Shown here one piece after another: positions 7,201 through 63,898 of a stretch of DNA of 64,000 bases. Source of the stretch: Diphasiastrum complanatum (lineage: Eukaryota; Streptophyta; Lycopodiopsida; Lycopodiales; Lycopodiaceae); assembly GCA_029204225.1 (NCBI GenBank), contig CM055100.1:51831260-51895259 (forward strand). The letters are read 5' to 3'. The position numbers and the translations under genes were made by a program. The notes under the pieces are model-generated. The model had not been told where the DNA came from and made no database searches. It saw nothing but the letters and a program-made list of their open reading frames with translations. Position 1 is the first letter of the stretch; every line of letters starts with the position of its first letter.

Positions 7201-7827
7201 AAAAGCCCTTTCAATGCTGACAGTAGTAAGTGTTCTCCCTCCCTTCTTCCTTGGAGCTACGCTCGCCTTTTCTCTTGAAGATTTTTGGAGCTTCTCATCG
7301 ATCACGCTTTCTGATCTCGCGCCTAGTTGCGTCTGTTCGAGGGCTTGAGTTTGATGTATTTTGTGTGGATGGAAGCTTTCTTTTCAGAGCACTGAATCCC
7401 CTTTTTCTGTAATAAACTACGACTTGGTTTGGATTTTTGATCGCATGCTCCAAAGTTGGAAACCGTAAATTGATGTATCAGCATTGATGCGCTTGGCTAG
7501 GTTTGCAGTGGATCTCCTTCGGCTGATATTGATCTTCTGTAAAGTTTAAGTTGCGGATGATTGCATCACTACAAAGCCGTGTAATATGCTGTTTTGCAGG
7601 TAACTGCGCAATTTCCGTCTGTCGCCGTGTATCGTGGGGCTTTATTTCAACTTTCGCTAGTTTCGCAAGCAAGGAACGTCAAAGCCGCATATCTGCTTGG
7701 TAGCACATGTCTTATTGGTTGCCATACTTTCATACTCGAATCTTTGAAGCGATATTTTCTTGCTGCCTTTTAACAACCTGCAAAGAAATTTCCTCTTTTT
7801 ACAAGTTTTGTAGAGGGATACAAATCC

Positions 7828-8385
7828 ATGAGTTCTTTAAGGGCCGACTTAGTAATGAACAGGGTAGATCCTGTTCGTGCTTATTCAAGCCAGAGTAATC
7901 AATCTTGTAATGCTAAGCGTGCCAGCTTGGTTCAGTGTAATCGAATCACTAATGATTTGAAAAACGGAGAATCACAGAAGAGACTAAAATCAGACCATGA
8001 TGTGATGAGAATGATAAAAAACAGCGATCAATCTACTTGGTGGACTTCTTTATTTCACTTCGCTCCTCAAGATTGGTCTACAGCTCTTGGCGAGAAGACG
8101 ACTTCAGCAGATGCCTCCTGCGTTTCTCAAGCTTGGTCGTCAACAAATGCCTCCGGTCCCGAAGGTCTCCATATGCATGTCAAAGGAGCAAATGGAAACG
8201 AAAACTTCCCCGAAAACACAAAAGAGGTCCTTAACAACAAGATCCACAAATCCAGTTTGAAGGTTGGAAACTTTACTGCCGACAAGGCTCGCATGCTGAG
8301 GCAGGAGCTTCGTCGTTTCGACTCATGGCACGACACCATGTACCATTCTGCCATAGCCTCTCGGCTTGCATCAGGAGATCGCTAA
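7828..8385 (+). CDS. hypothetical 185-residue protein
   Basis: This is an uninterrupted 185-codon frame starting MSSLRADLVMNRVDPVRAYS and ending ASRLASGDR. I do not recognise the family. It is hydrophilic, with no signal peptide or membrane segment. The centre has a Trp-rich patch (STWWTSLFHFAPQDWSTAL, about residues 69-87). The C-terminal part (KARMLRQELRRFDSWHDTMYHSAIASRL, residues about 153-181) looks like an amphipathic helix rich in Arg, His and Trp. A TATA box and pyrimidine-rich leader lie upstream. The 3' flank carries TGTAA-type elements usual near plant polyadenylation sites. Unlike its surroundings it carries no retroelement signature. The start chosen is the first ATG in frame. 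It is plausibly a real small plant gene, possibly with a 5' intron, but expression evidence is lacking. Confidence 0.5.
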   Translation: MSSLRADLVMNRVDPVRAYSSQSNQSCNAKRASLVQCNRITNDLKNGESQKRLKSDHDVMRMIKNSDQSTWWTSLFHFAPQDWSTALGEKTTSADASCVSQAWSSTNASGPEGLHMHVKGANGNENFPENTKEVLNNKIHKSSLKVGNFTADKARMLRQELRRFDSWHDTMYHSAIASRLASGDR

Positions 8386-34994: not shown

Positions 34995-35145
<151 letters not shown>

Positions 35146-39461: not shown

Positions 39462-39784
39462 TGGTATCAGAACCAGCAACTCCGACAACTCACACCATCA
39501 GTGATATCAGAGCCACAAGGCTTAATCAGAAACCCTCGTCACTGAGACTATGGCTTCTATACACAACATTCAATCAAAGGTCTGCATAGTGCTTGAAGCA
39601 AATGGGTCAAATTTCTTGGCCTAGAAAGTAAATACTTCACTCGTACTTAGAGGAGAAGCATTATGGCCATGGGTTGACAGCACCGAAGAGATGCCATCCA
39701 GCACAGACAAGGACCTTCGAGAGTGGAAGGAGAAGAGCGACCTATTGGAATGGAAAAATGAGTGCCATCTCCCAATTTGAATCA
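39462..39784 (+). pseudogene. Copia 5' end: primer-binding site and gag N-terminus
   Basis: TGGTATCAGAACC (about 39,462) is a primer-binding site. Some 75 bases later ATG 39,550 starts MASIHNIQSKVCIVLEANGSNF, one stop, then TSLVLRGEALWPWVDS, which follows the usual Copia gag pattern (substrate-like start, ..W.). The frame is lost near 39,780 and the element ends. A second, similar TGATATCAGAGCC occurs near 39,495. Confidence 0.6.
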
Positions 39785-39900
39785 AGCAGACAAGCATGGA
39801 GATTGGATTGATCGTATAGAGTATATAATATAATCAAAGATGAGTATTCTGTTTCGCTTCAAAAAATCTGTTCATATTACTGTGATGCATATGATCTCTA

Positions 39901-42370
39901 TTGTTTTTTCTGACGACGACATTGTATCATCTACATGTGGATATCCCTATTCATTTAGCACCTTTGCAGAGAAGAGGAGGCAAAGGAATTCGAATATTCG
40001 CTGATGATTGTTCTCGTTATAGGGCGGAAGGAAAGAGGAACTTGGATTTGTGGACAGATGGAACATTATATCCACAAGATCCAAGCACTTTGACACATCC
40101 CACATTCTCCTCAATAACTCATTTAGTTACATGGATATGCAATGGGCATACTAGATTACTAGGATATTATGAGAGATTGTAGAACCATGGAAAACAACTT
40201 TATATGAATAAAATTCACATTCTAGAAGGTGAGTTAACATGGATATCCTCTTATTGTCAGAATAGAGATTGTCTTCTCCAAAAGACGTTAGAGAAAAATG
40301 AATAGCTTAAAAGAAATAATGAATCATTATAGAAGATAACAATCTATATCAAATCAGAACTAGAGCAAATGCAATCAATCTTACAATCTATTCAAATTGA
40401 GAACTTACAATCACTGAAGGATGTGGAATTGGCTAAGAAGAAGGCTGGTAGTAAGAAGCGAAAGCGACAAAGTTGCAAGGATATTCAAACGCTTTCAAAA
40501 GGAGGTTTCAGCTATGGTGATATTCTGCTAACTATCTGTTTTTTTGCAGATCTGCATTAGTAGCTCCTCAGAATACTAAGGACAATGCTTTACTAGGAAT
40601 GTCATTGGGCTCAATATTGATAGGCAAATCCACTGAGTGTATTTAGATAAGACTATAGTTCAAGGTGGTTGTGATTTTGCAGGATTAGCAGGGAAGCATA
40701 TGCAACAATATTTAAACTAATTAGAGAAGCTTTTAAGCAAGTTCAAATTAGAAAAGTCCCAATTTCTAGGACATATCACTCGAAGCAAGAGAGATATACA
40801 TTAAACATAGGTATGCATAAGATCATCAAAACTCCATTTCATATTGAGGAGGTGTATGAAACTGATGGAGGATCAATATCCTTTAATTCATCAAACAACT
40901 TATTTGTTGATCTAAATTACGTGCTGAGATACATCGTCACATTCTATGATATAACCTTTGAAAAGGTGAATGGCAATTTAATCATAGTACTTAAGTTAGA
41001 TGAGTCAGAAATTGTGAAAGGGCAGAAGATGGTGAGGGTTAGTACAACTCTCATGAATGGTGCACTATCACAAACATAGGACCAAGAAGATCTCAGATTC
41101 AGTGTCCAGTCAGAAAATGATATATGGTGGTTGGCAATGTTTCAAGTAACTAGCCTCATTATTACATTAGATTCATTGAATAGTATTAATTTTTTGTAAA
41201 CTAAGTTTGATTAGTTCTTTGACATGTGCTAAAGGAGGATCACAATATATTATCATGGATATTCTCAAGGACATCTTATCCTAGGATCATCAAGGACCAT
41301 ATGGATGGAGGACTTCTCAATGTTCCAAGAGTTGGAGACTTCAAGGTTGAATGGCACTTAGCAGGTGATTTGAAAAAACATTGAAATGCTTGTATAATTT
41401 CTCTCATGGTGCTATATCTAAACACCCTTGTTTATACTGCATGAAAATGGCAAAAGATGTTACTAGGAGTACAGGAATTACTAGAGAATATGCAGATCCA
41501 AACTGGAAGCCTATGCTACCTATCCCCTGGAAAAATGTGCATGTTTGCACTCTTCATGCAAAAGTTAGATTAATAGAAAAGATCATTTATCTTCATATAG
41601 TTTTTGCTTGGAATAGTAAGCCAACATCATCTGCAAAGGAAGCTATCTCTCGTTCATAAGAAGTTTTAAAAAATATGCCAAGTAAGCCAAGCATAAGAAG
41701 AGCAAATGCACGTCGATTCCTATCAAATCATACTGGTAAGGCTTCTAATATTCAACACTCAGTCTGGACAGATATAATTGCTGCCACTCAGGACTTCAAG
41801 AAGAGTGGCAAAACTAGAGTACTAAAAGTTGATGTATGGAAGAAGCTTGATAGTATGATTGCTATTCTAAGAAAAGATAAATACTCTGATATTGATAAGA
41901 AGTTGTACAAAGGACTTGTGTCAAATTTGTTGATGCAGTATCAAAAGCATGGGGAGAAGATCACATCACTCATTACATGGGTAGTATAAATTCTTTGAGA
42001 TGCTTTCAATTTTCCATATATATTGAGATCCAAACATAAGATTGACATTATTGTTTTGACATCTACAACACATACTAAGAGATCATATATCATTTTTTGC
42101 AAACACATATGAAACTCTGAGTGTCTGGTCATCACAAGGGATGGAGAAGTCACATTGGCAAGCAAGGGCAACATTTCCTTGAAATACACAACATGGAGGA
42201 ACCAATGAAAAACGAAACTACATTTGCCAATTGTTTTAATGGTTCTATCGTAGAGTTCAGATTCGACATATAACAAAGTCCACACAATACAACAAGTTTA
42301 GAAAAGCATGCAAGTTCATACAAGAAGAGAAAATTAGATGATTGATGAGTAGAAGCTAACAAAGACATTC
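39901..42370 (+). pseudogene. decayed transposase-like protein of an unidentified element
   Basis: A chain of plus-strand frames appears to come from one protein. First is a basic N-terminal domain (FADDCSRYRAEGKRNLDLWTDG, 39,990-40,060). Next is a coiled-coil-like stretch (40,200-40,430) ending in the nuclear-type cluster KKKAGSKKRKRQ. A probable intron with GTGATATT...TTTTTTTGCAG (about 40,517-40,549) follows. Then come FNSSNNLFVDLNYVLRY and LKLDESEIVKGQKMVRVS (40,860-41,030), HPCLYCMKMAKDV followed by VHVCTLHAKVRLIEKI (41,410-41,590), an intact 105-codon segment (41,675-41,989) and QGMEKSHWQARATFLKY then HGG and WFYRRVQIRH (about 42,130-42,260). The order Asp-containing strand, CxxC, HxC..LHA and a late HGG/RRxQxRH block recalls eukaryotic DDE-type transposases, but I cannot name the superfamily. 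Several stops and frameshifts make this copy inactive. Confidence 0.45.
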
Positions 42371-42492
42371 AGTCATCATTGTCATAAAATCATGACATGT
42401 TCAGAATTGCTTGCAAATTCATGGAACAAGAGAGAGAAAAAATACTCAATGTAAATGTATTGATTGTATTATAACAAAATACATAGTGTTGA

Positions 42493-44010
42493 CTATTCAT
42501 CATCAACTTTTGTATTAGCTTGTATGGCTGTATTGTCATGAAGAAATTCTCTGCCTGAGTATGCATCTAATAGATGTGCATTATCCTTATTTTCACTAAG
42601 TTCAATATAAGTAGAGTACAATGAATAATGGGAGCTCCTTAAAGGAACATTCCCATCAGTAAAAGCTAGAATGTTCAAAACATAAGATCTTTTGACGAAA
42701 ATGATCTTATTTGTCTTAACAAATTTATGTCCTCCTAGATAAAAAGATAAAGCTTTAAGTGCCATTATCAGAGTCTCCCCAACTGGGCTCAGCTTCGAAT
42801 GAGCAATACAGATCTTATTCTTCAGAAAATGCCTAAGATAGTGGCCAAGTCCACTATCCCTCTGGAATGAGGATGCATGTTGTCTGTAACCACCTCGTCT
42901 CGTAGCAAAGTCACCAATTATGAGAGCATCCTACAATAAAAAATAAGTTAACAAAAAAACATTTAGCAGTTAACAACATTCTAATGTAAGGAAGTTTAAA
43001 CACTTACACATTCTTCATCATCAGCACCAACCAGATCTGGATGATCAATATTATGACCGCCTACAGAAGAATAATCATCTGTGAAATGCAATAATGATGG
43101 ACGAGAGAAGCCCATATGGGATTGAAATGCAGTGAATTCTTCATCAGATGGTATGCTTTGTCCATGCTCAACAAAATCTGATAAAGCTCTCTTCAAGCAT
43201 TCTTCACCGGTCATAAGTCCATCCTCATCATCATAATCAATTCTAGCAACAAGGTCATTTGTTTCAAAATCTACAAAGTCAGAGAATTCAAAAATTGTGC
43301 TGAATAATAAACATAACACCTCATCCTCACGATAGTCAAAAAAAATGACACAAATCAACTGTAGTAATATATACATCGTCATTTATATAATACACTGCCA
43401 AATTAAAAAGACATTTAGATTCGTCTATAGAGATCGATTCATCAACAGTAATATTCTAGCCAATGAATGAATCCCGAAGCACATCAGTATTTACATCAAA
43501 AAAATCACTATCCTTATCAAGGGTGTTGATAAGGAAGTGACTAATATCCTTAAAGGATGATTGAACTGAGGATGATACAATATGAGGATCAGAAGGAGAA
43601 ACTTCCTCATCATCGGGAATCTGAACTAATAGAAAAAGTACGAAACCAGTCTGATATTCAACAAATCGACATTTTTTGTTGCAGTGAGGACACATTGAAG
43701 TGCTTTTAAATAGATCAAACAATCTAGTGAACATTCTACCTAGTCTGTATCTCAAAAGTGGGAAGAAATGGATAAGATCATTATAATGCATGTAGGAGAG
43801 TGAACCTATGGAGATAACAAGTATACTGAGTATATCCCTAAATCTAACATAATGATTATAAAATACTTATGAATTGGGTTGCGCAGTCTTGAAAACATGT
43901 AAATATGGGAAACATAGGTTGTGGAAGTAGTCTAGGTTGTCACTTATTCCAAATTCAGTAAAAAATACACTTAGGCCAAAATCTAGGGTAGATCCTGAGG
44001 ATGAGGCCAT
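42493..44010 (-). CDS. unknown spliced gene, convergent to the transposase-like unit; upstream part damaged
   Basis: I do not recognise the family. The last exon (42,493 to about 42,931) follows TTATTGTAG and reads DALIIGDFATRRGGYRQHAS through MALKALSFYLGGHKF to the stop. The preceding exon ends GADDEEC at a GTAAGT donor (about 43,009), and both sides join in phase 0. That exon (42,996-43,382) is acidic (YDDEDGLMTGEECL). Further upstream a frame change at a run of A (about 43,340) and one stop (43,456) separate it from a segment with a possible zinc site (MCPHCNKKCRF, about 43,690). A start at 44,010 (MASSSGSTLDFG) may open the gene. Without lesions it would be about 480 residues. The 3' end faces the 3' end of the plus-strand unit about 120 bases away, which suggests one two-gene element. 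A decayed host gene is the alternative. Confidence 0.45.
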
Positions 44011-44124
44011 GGTACTAGGGCAGATACCACTCCTGTGCACAAGGGAAGCAATACGAAACAAAAAAAATTGTAAAGAACACGCACAAGAGGCATATGTACG
44101 GCAGATAGCACCGGGATATCGCAC

Positions 44125-46398
44125 TTGTGTGCAGGTAAAGATCAAGTAACAACAGACAACACAAAGTGCACACACAAGAAGTCATATGGACACTTTGTGG
44201 TGATGATCTCCACACAACCCAACCTCACTCTTCAAAAGGTGATTGGTCACCTACTTCAAGAAGAAATGCGGAGAAAGTCTCGCAGCATGTCTATCAAAGA
44301 CAAATCCATGGCTCTACACACCAATAAGAAAGACTACTCCAAGGGCAAAAATGAAGTGCAACAGCAACAACAAAAGCCTCATACTCAAGGTGAGAATAGT
44401 GGATCACGAAAGAAGCTTTTCTACAGATATTGCAAGAGAGCCAATCACGACATCAAGGAGTGTCGTATCCGGATCTACAACGAGGGAAAAAGCAACAACA
44501 ACAACAACCAGACTCCTCCAACACGGCATAATTCAAGGAGCAAGATCAATTCATCTTCGAGCACCATACGCGTGGAAGGCAAAGGGACAGTTAAGATCAC
44601 ATTCAACAACGATCTATCTATTTATGTTCCCAATGTCCTTCACGTTTCTCAACTATCAAAGACCTGTTATCAGTCTCTAAGATAACTGATGAGGGCTACA
44701 TTGTTACTTTCTCATCTGAGTAGTGTACAATATTCGAGGAAAATACTACTCTGACTACATGCACTAGAGTCAAAAATCTTTACGTACTCTCTAATTCAGT
44801 TGCATTAGCTAGTATCTCTAATGAAAATGTAAACGATAATGCTATTATGTGGCATAATCGATTTGGACACGTGAATACAAGATCACTTTCCTATATGCGC
44901 TGTAATAACTTAGTTGATGGATTGTATTTCCCTTCTTCATAAGATAGGAAATCTTTCTTTTGTGAATCATGCGTCTATGGCAAACACTCTAGAAGCAAGT
45001 TTCCTAAATCACATTCCATCAAAACAAAGCATGTATTGAATCTTGTACATAGCAATCTTTGTGGTCCAATGCCAACTCCGATCTTGGGAGATGCAATCTA
45101 TTTTATCACTTTCATAGATGATTATTCTAGATGGTCTACAGTCATGCTCATTAAGCACAAATGTAAAGCCTTTTAATGCTTCAAGAGATTCAAGACCATG
45201 GCTGAGACACAAACGTCTACAAAAGTGAAGACACTCCGAACTGATGGTGGCAACGAATACCTCTCTAACGAGATGTCCGACTACGTGGCTGAACATGGTA
45301 ATAGAAGACAATTCACCACTTCCTATTCACCTCAACAAAACGTGATTGTAGAAAGGAAGAATCAAACTCTTCTCAACTCAACCAGATCCATGCTACATCA
45401 AGCACACCTACCTACGAAGGTTTGGGCATAAGCTACTGCCACAACTTGTTACGTGCAAAATAGATCCAACATCAAAGTCATCAACAACAAAACTCCTTAT
45501 GAAGTTTGGCATGGACACAAGCCTAGTGTCAACCATTTAAAAATATTTGGTTGTAAATGTTTTGTTTACATTCCTAAACAGCTTAGGAAGAAGCTGGATC
45601 ATAGGACAAATAAATGTACTTTCATTGGCTATCCAGATGAACATAAAGCTTATAAAGTTTATGATCCATCCACTAATGTAGTATTTGTCTCTAGGGATGT
45701 AATATTTCAAGATAATACATACTATGATTTCAAACAAACATCGATAAACGATGCTATGTCATTTCATCCTATTTTACGTAGCATGGATTCTTCTAACGTT
45801 GATGTCCCTTCTACAGAGCCTGTAGCTACAACTATAGAAGCCGAGCAACCGACAGTACCTGTCATCAGACCAGACCAAGCTAGCTCGAACAGATCTGGAG
45901 AAATTCAAGAAGAATCATCATCTCATCCTGGTCAACCAAACGTCGCAGATCCTCACAGACTCGGACAGTTCCTGAGAGTTATACACCTCAATCATTTTGG
46001 ACTTCATCAAAAAACCAGAGAGCCTAGCCAAAGCAATTAAATATAAGGATGTTGTGAAGTGGCAAGAAGCTATGGAAAGCGAGTACAACTCACTTTTGAC
46101 GAACCAGACCTGGAAACTGGTCGACTTCCCCACTCACAAGAGAGTTATCGACAACAAGTGGATCTTCAAGAAGAAGATTAACTCTGATGGTTGCATTGCT
46201 AAATGGAAAGCACGGCTGGTGGCTAAAGGATTCAATCAAGTCCAAGGAGTGAATTATCAAGAAAATTTCAGTCCTGTTGTCAAGATGCAGTCAATCAGGA
46301 CTTTGATTGCATTAGCAGCCGCAGAAGACCTCGAAATGCACCAAATGGATGTCAAGACAACATTTCTCAATGGGAACGTCAAAGAGGAGTGGTATACT
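44125..46398 (+). mobile_element. Copia element C, left half (gag to RT N-terminus)
   Basis: The gag tail (44,215-44,550) has LTLQKVIGHLLQEEMRRK and a zinc-knuckle relic FYRYCKRANHDIKEC in which the first Cys is Tyr. Pre-integrase (MWHNRFGHVNTRSL) and FFCESCVYGKHSRSKF give the HHCC site. Integrase (about 45,000-45,430) reads LVHSNLCGPM, where Asn replaces the first catalytic Asp, RTDGGNEYLS with the second Asp, and VERKNQTLL with the Glu. The C-terminal part (45,453-45,770) has YEVWHGHKPSVNHLKIFGC and FIGYPDEHKAYKVYDP. Reverse transcriptase (45,997-46,398) has KWIFKKKINSDG, KARLVAKGFNQVQGVNYQE and DVKTTFLNGNVKEE. It is broken at 46,398 by the insertion of element D and continues at 51,007. 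Scattered stops make it inactive. The gag start and 5' LTR were not found. Confidence 0.9.
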
Positions 46399-47011
46399 TG
46401 TTGAATTCACACGTGTGGGATGCCCTACACATGTACTTTTGATCTCCTAAGCCCAATAATACCATAAAGATCAAACTAGCATTGATTGACAACAGGAAAG
46501 CTGATCATACAAGAAATATTATTGTGTTACAAGCAAGATCTATCAACAAAATATGAAACTAAGTACAATAAATGTCTCAACTCAACTAGAGAGAGAATAT
46601 GAATGTACAAACCCAAGTAGAGAGAGAGGGTACAAAGAGCTTAGTCTCCAAATTTGCATTACACACAAAAATCATCATCTTCTCAATGAGAGTACATCAC
46701 ATATATATAGATCCATGGACTCTCCTCCTACTTTGAGTTGAATTGGAGTTATGAATCCACCTCTCAAGCTATCTAGACTTATTCAAGCCACCTCAATATG
46801 TCTAATTGTGTCACCTAGTATTTTCATGCATTAAATGTGGCATGCAAAGTACAAATGACAATTCCTATGGTAGCTCGAGTTTCTACTTCTACCTACCTTG
46901 AATATTTTATTCTAAGACGAGTCTTTACTAAGCCAAAAGAGCTCAATTCATCTTTGGCATTTTTAGGACCCCTACTTACAACATTAGATAGATTTTTCCA
47001 ATATTTCAACA
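46399..47011 (-). repeat. 3' LTR of element D (613 bp)
   Basis: It begins TGTTGAATTC and ends TTCAACA, giving short terminal inverted repeats. By eye it differs from the partner at 50,392-51,006 by 12 substitutions and one 2-bp (AG) indel. It is the 3' LTR because coding runs on the minus strand and the polypurine tract lies at its right edge. Confidence 0.93.
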
Positions 47012-50391: not shown

Positions 50392-51006
50392 TGTTGAATT
50401 CACACGTGTGGGATGCCCTACACATGTACTTTTGATCTCCTAAGCCCAATAATACCATAAAGATCAAACTAGCATTGATTGACAATAGGAAAGCTGATCA
50501 TACAAGAAATATTATCGTGTTACAAGCAAGATGTATCAACAAAATATGAAACTATGTACAATAAATGCCTCAACTCGGCTAGAGAGAGAATATGAATGTA
50601 CAAACTCGAGTAGAGAGAGAGAGGGTACAAAGAGCTTAGTCTCCAAATTTGTATTACACACAAAAATCATCATCTTCTCAATGAGAGTACATCACACATA
50701 TATAGATCCATGGAATCTCCTCCTACTTTGAGTTGAATTGGAGTTATGAATCCACCTCTCAAGCTATCTAGACTTATTCAAGCCACCTCAATATGTCTAA
50801 TTGTGTCACCTAGTATTTTCATGCATTAAATGTGGCATGCAAAGTACAAATGACAATTCCTATGGTAGCTCGAGTTTCTACTTCTACCTACCTTGAATAT
50901 TTTATTCTAAGACGAGTCTTTACTAAGCCAAAAGAGCTCAATTCATCTTTGGCATTTTTAGGACCCCTACTTACAACATTAGATAGATTTTTCCAATATT
51001 TCAACA
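50392..51006 (-). repeat. 5' LTR of element D (615 bp)
   Basis: This is the partner of 46,399-47,011. The extra AG lies in a GA-rich run near 50,612. All differences from the partner seen by eye fall within the first 330 bases (plus-strand order); the remaining 280 bases are identical. Confidence 0.93.
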
Positions 51007-61100: not shown

Positions 61101-63898
61101 AATCCATTCTAAGGCTATTGTGTAAGATGCATTGGATCATCAGTATTGTATGGCTAAACAAGGACAGCCTTGCAGTCACTCAAATCTGATTAATTGTCAC
61201 AAAGGAGTAAATTCTCACCATTTTCTTTTGTGTCAATGCTTCTTGTGGGGAACCATCCCACCCAGTAGAAAAGATTACAGGATTTTATATGTTCCTTGAA
61301 AGTAAGCATAATGACCAATGACATGTGATGTCTGTTTTGTAAGGGCGCTGCTATGATGTTGTAACATATGTTAATGAATTTGTGTTTTAAAAGAAGGGCA
61401 GGCGACGAAAGAAGGCTGATACTCATGAGTCCAAGCATGACAATGAGGTGAATTTGAGGTCTGTATATTCATCATGTGATGTTCTCCAGTGAAACATATT
61501 GTGCTGTATGTATGGCCCATAGGCTATTTGTTTAGGCTTGGTGAATGTCATTGCCGTCTTGAACTGAAGACATTGTTCATAAAATTGAAATACAAGTTTC
61601 AAATAATAAACTGGGAATTCTGTATATTCCCAGCCAAACATGCCTTATTGTGAGTCACGTCAATTTCACATCAAAAACACGATCAGATATTACATGAATG
61701 TGGCATTTGTGACTTTTGGCAGTGACAAAAACATAACTGCTGACTGCAGTGTGCAACGTTCATCGCTGAATTCAGACAGTCGGGAGTTGTCAGTAGGTAA
61801 TCATCATGGTTCAAATGAAAACATACATGGAAAAGAGGTGAAATGTGGTACTTCCTTTGCACATATTGCTGATGGTCTTCAGAAGATCTTGTTCAGTGGA
61901 GTTAAATATAGGCAATCTAATCATCTATGGGCCAATCAAACATACACCAAAGGACCAAGTCGAGCTTCATTGTCAGTGACAAGGGATGATCCTAAAGAAG
62001 TCACACCTAAAATATCTGGAAAATCTGAGGTCTTAATGAATACTGCAAACTCAGTTTCTAAAGTATTACCTGAAACTGATCCATCAGTGATGGAAGGTTC
62101 TGTTGACGACATCAATGACTTAGATCACTTTGTTGATGCAATGACAACAGTGGAGTCCGAAACTGAAGCAGATTCTGAACGGCGAACCAGACCTGAAAGT
62201 GAGTGTGATTGCATTTCAGAATGCATCGACAGGAATGAAGACTTGTCACAGAAAAGCTCTGAGAGGATTCCTGAAACCAAGAATCTGAAACAAAATGGCC
62301 TTTTGCAGAAGCAAACTGATAAGCCATTTTTAGGCAATTCTCCATGCCAATCAAATGTCGAATCTATTTTCCTAGCTACCTTAAAGATTGCAAGTGCAGC
62401 CAAAGATGGTAGAGTGCAGAGAACTGAAGCTGCTAGAACTACACCATCCTTATCGGATTCGGATTCCAGCAAAGTTCTGCAAAATGAACATAACGGCCTT
62501 TCAAATAGTGCAAGTGATCCTTTATCCATATCAGCACCTTTTTTAGAAACAAATCATAAGCAGCAAGAAGATCTTGTAGCACCTTCGAGGCAAAATGCGA
62601 GCACAGGAGACAAAAAAGGAGAGCTACCAGTAGATTTAGCACAATCTTTAGCGAAATCGAGTTCTGTGATCAATATACCTCATTCTTGCACAACAAGTCC
62701 TGTTACCTCATGTTTGTTTCCAAACTTGTCCAGATCTAGCTATATAAATTGCTCTTTTGGTGATGAATCTCCTGTTTCGAGCTTAAGTTCTTTAGGATCA
62801 TCGCCACATTCCCCAGTATTTAGTGCATTTCTGTCCCCAATGTCTCCTGTAAAAGCATCTCATGACATGTTACTTTTGCCTGAACTTCAGAGTATAAGTT
62901 TTCCTACAGTTTTGTTTAGCCCTAGCACTCTAACTGCTGGTCTATCAAAATCATCTCCATTACTGCCCGAAGAGATGCCTCCACCTCCTCCACTTCCTCC
63001 ATTGAGATGGAGAGTTCCGAGCCCACATAAAATATTATTACCGTCTTTAACTCGAACTGTTGATCTACAGCCATCTCCTCAACTACCCTCATCATTGACA
63101 AAACATCGAGTTCATCAAGACTTCTCTCGGTCCTTACGGCATTCAAACTACACTCAAATCAGGCAAGAAGAAAAGAAGCCTTCAATACAAGTGTCACTAA
63201 AAGAAAGCAACAATTATTTTGCAAGATCAATCTCGGGACATGACAAGGGCATGGTAAGAAAAGAACATTTGCATGTAGTCCAGCTTTGGTTGTGAAGCAT
63301 GCAATTTGTTTAAACTTTTGATAATAATCTCAGCACCAGTGAAAGGTAGACCGTAGAAGCAAGTGAAGAATTGTATCTTTGATTGTCTCCTCTTGATATT
63401 GTACTGCAATGGCCCAACCTGAACAGTGGCAATGCTTGCAGCTGAAGAAGGTTGCCTCAGTGGGTCGATCTCCAAAAGTACTACCTCTTGATAATCATCA
63501 ATTATTGCTTGAACAGATCAGAACTCGGGTAATTTCTACATTTCAAGTCTCTGTTTGCTTGAAAATCTTCTGCTAAACTACGTGCAAGTTCATTCTGGTA
63601 CTTAGCTCTCTGGAACTGTATTAACTGAACTTTGCTTGACAGTCCTACACTTTGCGGCAGACTAATTGTCAGAAAAAAGGAACTCCTCAGCAGACAACTA
63701 AACACATTAGCGTGGCTGCAATTTTTGAAAAAGCTAATGCTATACGGCAGGTACTGCAAGCCTGCATGGTTTCTTTGAGAATAGAACACATTGACATCTT
63801 AGGAACTGCTGGCCTTCTAACCTACTTTCTGGTCAATGCAGGCCTTTGCAGGAAGTGAAGATGACGATGATGATGCTGAATGGACAGATTCTAGCTAG
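58124..63898 (+). CDS. SCAR: SCAR/WAVE family protein, nine exons, 801 residues
   Basis: SCAR is the WAVE-complex subunit that activates ARP2/3 for actin branching. Exons join in frame at GT-AG sites: 58124-58278, 60010-60173, 60410-60533, 60745-60859, 61394-61458, 61723-63253, 63442-63528, 63643-63750 and 63842-63898. Residues 1-186 form the SCAR homology domain: MPLIRYHIKNE, DDPESIFRSLAMTGLVNIVRQLGDFAE, AEIFGSVHKEIMAVSARG, GGDLPKFLLDSYEQCKQLPRLFMLDK, GACLRRYSDPSYFK. A basic KGRRRKKAD segment follows, then a long Ser-rich middle with PPPPPLPPLRWR near residue 630. A WH2-like motif is rebuilt across exons 6 and 7 (GHDKGM/LKKV). The conserved tail follows: LLEQIRTR, VAAIFEKANAIRQ and the acidic end DDDDDAEWTDSS with its Trp, the ARP2/3-binding part. 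The start is the conserved MPL. The length equals that of short plant SCARs. The WH2 helix upstream of HDK is divergent. No stop or frameshift was seen. Confidence 0.93.

Follow-up and report, generated by a model that had tools for sequence, protein, structure and literature searches.

The CMCT clade of DNA transposons, as delineated in PMC12730594, comprises EnSpm/CACTA, Mirage, Chapaev, Transib, Plavaka, ESTA and Lanisha, and is marked by a trio of acidic residues (D, D and E) in the transposase domain, a C(2)C motif after the second catalytic aspartate (D), an H(3-4)H motif between that residue and the catalytic glutamate (E), termini that are mostly 5′-CA..TG-3′ and target duplications of 2–5 bp. 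The same source cites Lanisha from its proposal in Repbase Reports 2020, and Spy, of the PHIS superfamily, as an element with inverted repeats and no target duplication. Elsewhere, a hAT transposon of Pseudocercospora and its relatives among the Dothideomycete fungi is reported to have captured a host histone H3 (PMC6710886), the Arabidopsis VANDAL elements encode VANC, an anti-silencing protein that brings about loss of DNA methylation (PMC5735166), and the fungal Sly1-1, a CMC-type DNA transposon, bears a second gene to which no function is assigned (PMC4592977). Here we describe a segment of a 64,000-nucleotide stretch from the lycopod Diphasiastrum complanatum (GCA_029204225.1, contig CM055100.1, positions 51,831,260 to 51,895,259; hereinafter the window), which is a decayed remnant from the interior of a DNA transposon of the cut-and-paste type; complete copies of the element encode their own H3-like histone and, probably, a transposase related to RAG1 and the CMCT group.

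The original prediction had placed a possible two-gene DNA transposon of no assignable superfamily at 39901–44010 of the window, made up of a decayed, transposase-like plus-strand gene and a spliced minus-strand accessory gene facing it. The element is real and the two genes do converge tail to tail, but they are spaced by about 155 bp (gene 1 ends at 42338 and the stop of gene 2 lies at 42493–42495), not about 120, and the stretch that aligns with other copies extends from 39740 to 44179, past the predicted borders on both sides. Gene 1, four exons of which are readable across copies, holds every motif that had been named. Its exon X1 (39919–40503, plus strand; from tblastn with the shared reading of the copies, 88%) encodes an N-terminal domain with a coiled coil and KKKAGSKKRKRQ, and is interrupted by three stops; X3 (40551–41145, plus strand; from the copy alignment and tblastn) bears the first catalytic D candidate (LKLDESEI, in the Asp strand LKLDESEIVKG); X4 (41226–41979, plus strand; on the same basis) bears the second D (HLAGDLK), the C(2)C motif (PCLYC, the predicted CxxC) and LHA; and X5 (42069–42338, plus strand; from tblastn, hhalign and spacing) bears the H(4)H motif (HILRDH), the catalytic E candidate (SSQGMEKSH), HGG and RRVQIRH, along with two stops. 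Part of the decay that had been noticed consists of three deletions in the window copy, near 40506 and 40643 by X3 and near 41669 in X4, of sequence kept by other copies; a reading of these gaps as lost introns was rejected, as the alignment shows deletions that include coding sequence. Gene 2, on the minus strand, comprises an open last exon (42496–42930; from the open-frame list), with relatives in all 20 copies fetched for comparison, and one or more first exons (43008–44010; from the reading of frames and the copies) that start MASSSGST and contain CPHCNKKC together with two stops and a frameshift; it is spliced as had been claimed, its intron showing by reading GTAAGT...TTGTAG borders.

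The family is multicopy. In the 1.74 Gb of genome searched, a 4110-base query gave 139 matching pieces with only the 40 best of 6685 candidates scored, both genes recurring in the same order at many places at 84–92% identity; the single-copy status named beforehand as telling against a transposon was not found. Most of the 20 fetched copies are broken. Three of them, extended rightward, proved to be elements of 8165, 9530 and 9273 bp, and among six more that were extended both ends lie within the stretches fetched in e18 and e19, the left end only in e10, e12 and e16, and neither in e26. Complete copies span 8.2–9.5 kb, with inverted repeats at both ends in six copies (the sixth being 9384 bp long); the terminal inverted repeats measure 31–35 bp and start CATTAGAGGAGTTCTC, the element ending CATTAG...CTAATG. 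They hold, in order, the transposase candidate (plus strand), gene 2 (minus), an H3-like histone gene (gene 3, plus) and, right of the histone, gene 4 (minus), the last two being absent from the window. Hence, the envisaged layout of a transposase-like gene facing an accessory gene recurs in co-linear copies with inverted repeats, but the element has four genes rather than two, and the window retains only an internal fragment without ends. Likewise, comparison within the genome brought out the repeated copies, sharp ends and inverted repeats that had been looked for, the last in complete copies, but no target duplications. The terminal stretches (201 and 250 bp) gave 1687 and 1557 first-look candidates, the best 40 of each of which were scored, and all of these matched. 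The small contigs C2411, C1640, C2627 and C2710 repeat loci of chromosomes C9, C2 and C10 with the same match coordinates and near-equal identity; they are probably retained haplotype copies, and genome counts are therefore inflated. No relatives were found in the viral contigs scanned, in phages or in prokaryote genome contigs.

Beyond this family (lineage I), three loci, fetched from a search with the CENH3 fold and picked for long open frames (391, 412 and 330 residues), each carry gene 1 exons of diverged sequence, with gene 2 and a gene for an H3-like protein nearby. Lineage II, represented by d5 and d17 (which match at about 95% across stretches of 3.2 kb and 0.6 kb), shares 38–60% identity with lineage I in X4, 48–51% in X5, 33–35% in gene 2 and 40–47% in the histone, and differs in gene order, its transposase and gene 2 pointing one way and its histone the other; a gene 4-like frame is present in d5 at 33%, with none seen in d17, where the histone shares a single frame with an N-terminal part like that of gene 1. 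Lineage III lies in d7 beside a lineage I copy, with identities of 33–65% in X4, 58% in X5, 26–44% in gene 2 and 38% in the histone, and with no gene 4-like frame seen there. For lineages II and III, the sequence examined showed no inverted repeats.

Gene 1 resembles the RAG1/CMCT group in its motifs and their spacing, and may be placed near it on that ground, with weak whole-sequence similarity and no strong match over its length. The second D and the E candidates are present in all six rows of alignment A3, and the first D in all four rows that cover it, this residue recurring in lineage II at 60% identity. The two cysteines of the C(2)C motif after the second D (C148 and C151) are invariant in the six aligned rows, and lost in some single copies outside the alignment (L023 and L024); the H(4)H motif follows between the second D and the E, with the E 20 residues further on, as in RAG1. 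In lineages I and II versus RAG1, the distances are 20/20 versus 19 from D to C, 3 from C to C, 203/209 versus 207 from C to H, 5 from H to H, and 20/20 versus 20 from H to E. In these two lineages, which are about 42% alike, all five distances lie no more than 4 residues from those of RAG1; the distance from D to the LH motif departs from it (62/68 versus 87). In a first hhalign run against RAG1, the single local match coincided with the H..H..E segment (E 0.012; score 25.7, the best of 40 shuffles reaching 22.2), and with three lineages included the match extended over 83 columns at E 0.0031 and a score of 29.8, compared with at most 23.7 in 100 shuffles, 16.8 for the reversed sequence and 24.0 for the best of five decoys. 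When the end of X4 and X5 were compared with 177,635 PDB sequences, three RAG1 chains ranked first, at E-values of only 0.66–1.3.

Several results weigh against a RAG1-related transposase that integrates without a target duplication. The RAG1 match has a probability of just 10% on hhalign's own scale; a profile search of PDB with gene 1 did not list RAG1, and gave instead Utp10 at E 3.2e-4 over the helical insert of gene 1, which we take for a chance match of helices; a lineage I gene 1 profile had no match in PDB; no Pfam transposase family matches gene 1 among the window pieces and read-through proteins; the duplication is of 0 bp as against the 2–5 bp of the CMCT elements; and the empty site described below was confirmed once only, in a paralogue of the e22 target. 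One could hold, accordingly, that gene 1 encodes a DDE transposase of another undescribed superfamily, or no transposase, its likeness to RAG1 being convergent or a matter of chance, as the lack of a Pfam match, the weak scores, the stronger-scoring Utp10 profile match and the zero-base duplication would suggest. We regard this as unlikely, if deserving of serious weight, in light of the five RAG1 spacings held in two such diverged lineages, the lower scores of shuffles and decoys, and the CA..TG termini.

A relationship to RAG1 and the CMCT transposases thus being preferred, the element shares with that group the D..C(2)C..H(3-4)H..E order, with candidate acidic residues, the CA..TG termini and a spacing near that of RAG1, and departs from the CMCT elements, besides the duplication, in its four genes including a histone and in the lack of a significant whole-domain match. 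Lanisha may be its nearest named relative. The claim that no named superfamily could be assigned stands insofar as none fits cleanly, but gives way in that gene 1 lies near RAG1 and CMCT by motif and spacing. EnSpm/CACTA proper has CACTA-type ends, a duplication of about 3 bp and a Pfam CACTA transposase; unlike it, the present element ends in CATTAG, duplicates 0 bp and has no Pfam transposase match. It is like Spy, an element related to Harbinger/IS5, in joining inverted repeats to the absence of a target duplication, but a Pfam search with E-values up to 10 gave only unrelated weak matches and none to a Harbinger/IS5-type transposase, and the fixed AAA/TTT target of Spy is not seen in this element. 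Helitrons lack inverted repeats, insert between A and T and encode a Rep/helicase protein, whereas here there are inverted repeats of 31–35 bp, varied border bases in five copies and no Rep/helicase Pfam match. Pfam was also the check proposed for the genes themselves: for genes 1, 2 and 4, no family scored above the cut-off with single window pieces and read-through proteins.

The third gene of complete copies lies beyond the right-hand break of the window copy and encodes a histone-fold protein of about 339 residues. Its Pfam histone matches reach E 5.5e-26 (e23) and 2.7e-24 (e22), with core histone scores of 86–92 bits in lineage I, 104 in lineage II and 44 in lineage III against a cut-off of 26.4 (E 7e-30 for d5 of lineage II and 3.3e-11 for lineage III), and the best PDB chains are H3, at E-values near 3e-21. 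It is present in 15 of the 20 fetched copies; in the others (L009, L011, L014, L024 and L028), it may lie outside the fetched stretch or have been lost. In a genome search, 150 of 7638 candidates were scored and all matched at E 1.3e-111 or better; some of these have no internal stop and many have one or more, mostly TAG, and seven of the 40 scored left ends are followed on their own strand, no further than 11 kb downstream, by one of the 150. At two loci, L047 (C17) and L048 (C7), a single open frame (391 and 412 residues, respectively) runs through both an N-terminal part like that of gene 1 and the histone fold; the L048 frame looks like the result of an internal deletion, and that of L047 could be either such a deletion or a real fusion.

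An origin from CENH3, suggested by eye, was not upheld: identity is about 47% to host H3 and 46% to Arabidopsis CENH3, and a 12-row tree, which does not decide between the two, places the element histones on one side with weak support (80/77). The search with the CENH3 fold picked out H3-like frames of many kinds as well as the canonical H3 genes of the host, and did not identify the host CENH3.

Histone H3 bears an active mark on lysine 4 (K4) and a silencing mark on lysine 9 (K9). In the N-terminal tail, readable in 12 of the 15 aligned lineage I copies (three are frame-shifted in the alignment), a lysine stands at the K4 place in 11 of the 12, and the K9 place is taken by D in nine copies, by E in a single copy and by K in the remaining two. 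The only copy from lineage III starts MAFMKQTTQI, keeping K4-Q5-T6 with I at position 9, and the lineage II histone (d5) has a different N-terminus. One might guess that this pattern helps the element evade silencing.

The H3-like gene is under purifying selection. The ratio of nonsynonymous to synonymous divergence (dN/dS) was computed between two subfamilies, A and B (6 and 5 copies, 30 pairs), both with and without masking of locally frame-shifted stretches, as masking lowers dN somewhat. For the histone gene it is 0.20 masked and 0.24 unmasked, falling to 0.12 in the histone fold (masked); the corresponding values are 0.23–0.30 for gene 2, 0.32–0.67 for the gene 1 exons and 0.37–0.43 for gene 4 (8–12 pairs). 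Within subfamily A it is 0.65 for the histone and 0.93 for gene 1, and subfamily B gives 0.33 and 0.57, values in keeping with decay of the copies once inserted. Synonymous divergence between the subfamilies (masked; L010–L026 with the right-hand extensions) is uneven along the element, rising from about 0.11–0.16 in the gene 1 exons and 0.13–0.15 in gene 4 through 0.30–0.39 in gene 2 to 0.65 in the histone gene, which suggests mosaic copies formed by exchange.

That the histone gene is a host gene captured passively and amplified by the transposon, with no role for the element, is rather improbable. Such captures exist, as the report on the fungal hAT attests (PMC6710886), and the broken state of most fetched copies and the ratio of 0.65 within subfamily A would agree with one; however, the histone is only about 47% identical to host H3, dN/dS between subfamilies is 0.20–0.24, and two diverged lineages carry the histone next to the transposase and gene 2. 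The last circumstance makes it an old companion of the transposase in this genome. The fungal hAT likewise brings together a DNA transposon and a multicopy H3 sequence, but its H3 is reported to be a recent copy of the host gene, inactivated by repeat-induced point mutation except for the original, whereas here a diverged H3 is kept in three lineages along with another type of transposase (PMC6710886). As with VANC, a plant DNA transposon would encode a non-transposase protein that counters silencing, a function here proposed only, and unlike VANC, which causes DNA methylation to be lost, the accessory is a histone (PMC5735166). Sly1-1 is similar in having a second, functionally unassigned gene; it differs in its target duplications and divergent genes, and the accessible section mentions no histone (PMC4592977). 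Beyond the hAT capture, the searches made of the open PMC literature turned up no histone-encoding transposon of this kind; they did not extend to Repbase, and a named entry may exist there.

A histone gene retained for the element's own use being the reading we favor, its product would pair with host histone H4 and form variant nucleosomes on element DNA, protecting it or keeping it from silencing. More broadly, and as a tentative possibility only, these lineages may make up a superfamily-level group of transposons with a RAG1-type transposase, no target duplication and a dedicated H3 variant, retained in lineages that are about 40–60% alike, that builds nucleosomes which host silencing cannot mark normally; if true, the chromatin of the transposon would be able to bear the active mark and not the silencing mark. 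Enzymes and DNA-binding proteins are among the tools that transposons are known to have taken up to counter silencing. For a core nucleosome protein to be encoded as a fixed member of a transposon's gene set would be a new strategy should its function hold, and would open to testing the question of whether the chromatin of a mobile element can be of its own choosing. The surprise lies in the conjunction of a standing histone gene with a zero-base duplication, the transposase appearing to be a relative of a known group and the function of the histone being a proposal. In practice, a family with some 1,500–1,700 first-look candidate ends could be entered in annotations as unknown repeats and false histone genes.

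No direct repeat is found at the borders in any of the six complete copies. In e15 and in e22 the joined flanks, as read by eye, give back an unbroken Copia frame, and in e19 they give back one unit of a tandem repeat; the border bases in five copies are T|C, A|C, C|A, T|T and G|G. Of 41 genome matches to joined flanks, 40 span the e22 junction in other Copia copies without the element, and the remaining one covers only part of the e15 right flank; the abundant Copia of e22 filled the list, and among the matches scored none spans the junctions of e15, e23, e18 or e19. The best e22 match, when fetched, proved to be base-for-base continuous across the junction, with 0 bp gained or lost, and integration therefore neither duplicated nor removed target bases, at least at e22, to which this paralogous empty site corresponds. 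A later recombination between copies, or a loss, could in principle mimic this outcome, since ectopic exchange can mix flanks; such an account is very unlikely here, because exchange would not restore a continuous site, as seen in the restored Copia frames and repeat unit and in the intact empty site of e22. Under integration chemistry that leaves no duplication, the gene 1 protein would be a DDE enzyme of the RNase H type, akin to RAG1 and to the transposases of the CMCT clade. It would bring the two inverted repeats together and link them to target DNA that has been cut bluntly, and the blunt cut would account for the missing duplication. A RAG1-like transposase of this kind would bear on how the stagger of the target cut evolved in the group behind V(D)J recombination.

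The window fragment itself (39740–44179, no strand assigned) is sharp at both ends in alignment to other copies, which continue past both borders; it lacks the two inverted repeats along with about 350 bp of left-hand and about 3–4.4 kb of right-hand sequence, the latter including the histone gene and gene 4. With neither end present, the piece as it stands was not brought in intact by a transposition of its own, and inverted repeats or target duplications at its borders do not stand clearly above shuffled controls, as is to be expected of a fragment without ends. It sits between two parts of a Copia gag (the left recognized by eye, the right computed), within a Copia element that continues rightward on the plus strand (44180–46401; gag_pre-integrs at 44724–44942, RVT_2 at 45976–46401; repeated Copia from 44179 on), and was probably left by rearrangement or repair inside it. 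Thirty-eight of 40 scored genome matches to 44030–44330 start at 44179, like Copia copies without the fragment, and of these 40 just two continue across the right junction: the window itself and a contig 100% identical to it, which probably duplicates the locus. As far as the scored matches go, the fragment represents a single event, and a mobile Copia carrying it was rejected on the same evidence. BLAST of the window against itself found no second copy of the region. The second to sixth longest open frames of 39801–44180 were reached in none of 300 order-1 Markov controls and the longest in one of 300, and they are therefore beyond chance. The surroundings are Copia and Gypsy pieces, as had been stated, which might invite the view that the two window genes are host genes or retroelement pieces; the many co-linear copies with inverted repeats, and the lack, likewise as predicted, of a Pfam retroelement match in either gene, leave that view next to no probability.

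To the right of the Copia element lies a pair of direct repeats (46399–47011 and 50392–51006, 97.7% identical), probably the long terminal repeats of a younger retroelement nested there. Two long plus-strand open frames without a Pfam match, at 61610–63292 (561 residues) and 7774–8382 (203 residues), have the look of host-gene exons, the former resembling a plant SCAR/WAVE protein by eye; given these frames, the window may lie inside long introns. A perfect TC dinucleotide array of 73.5 units occupies 34996–35142.

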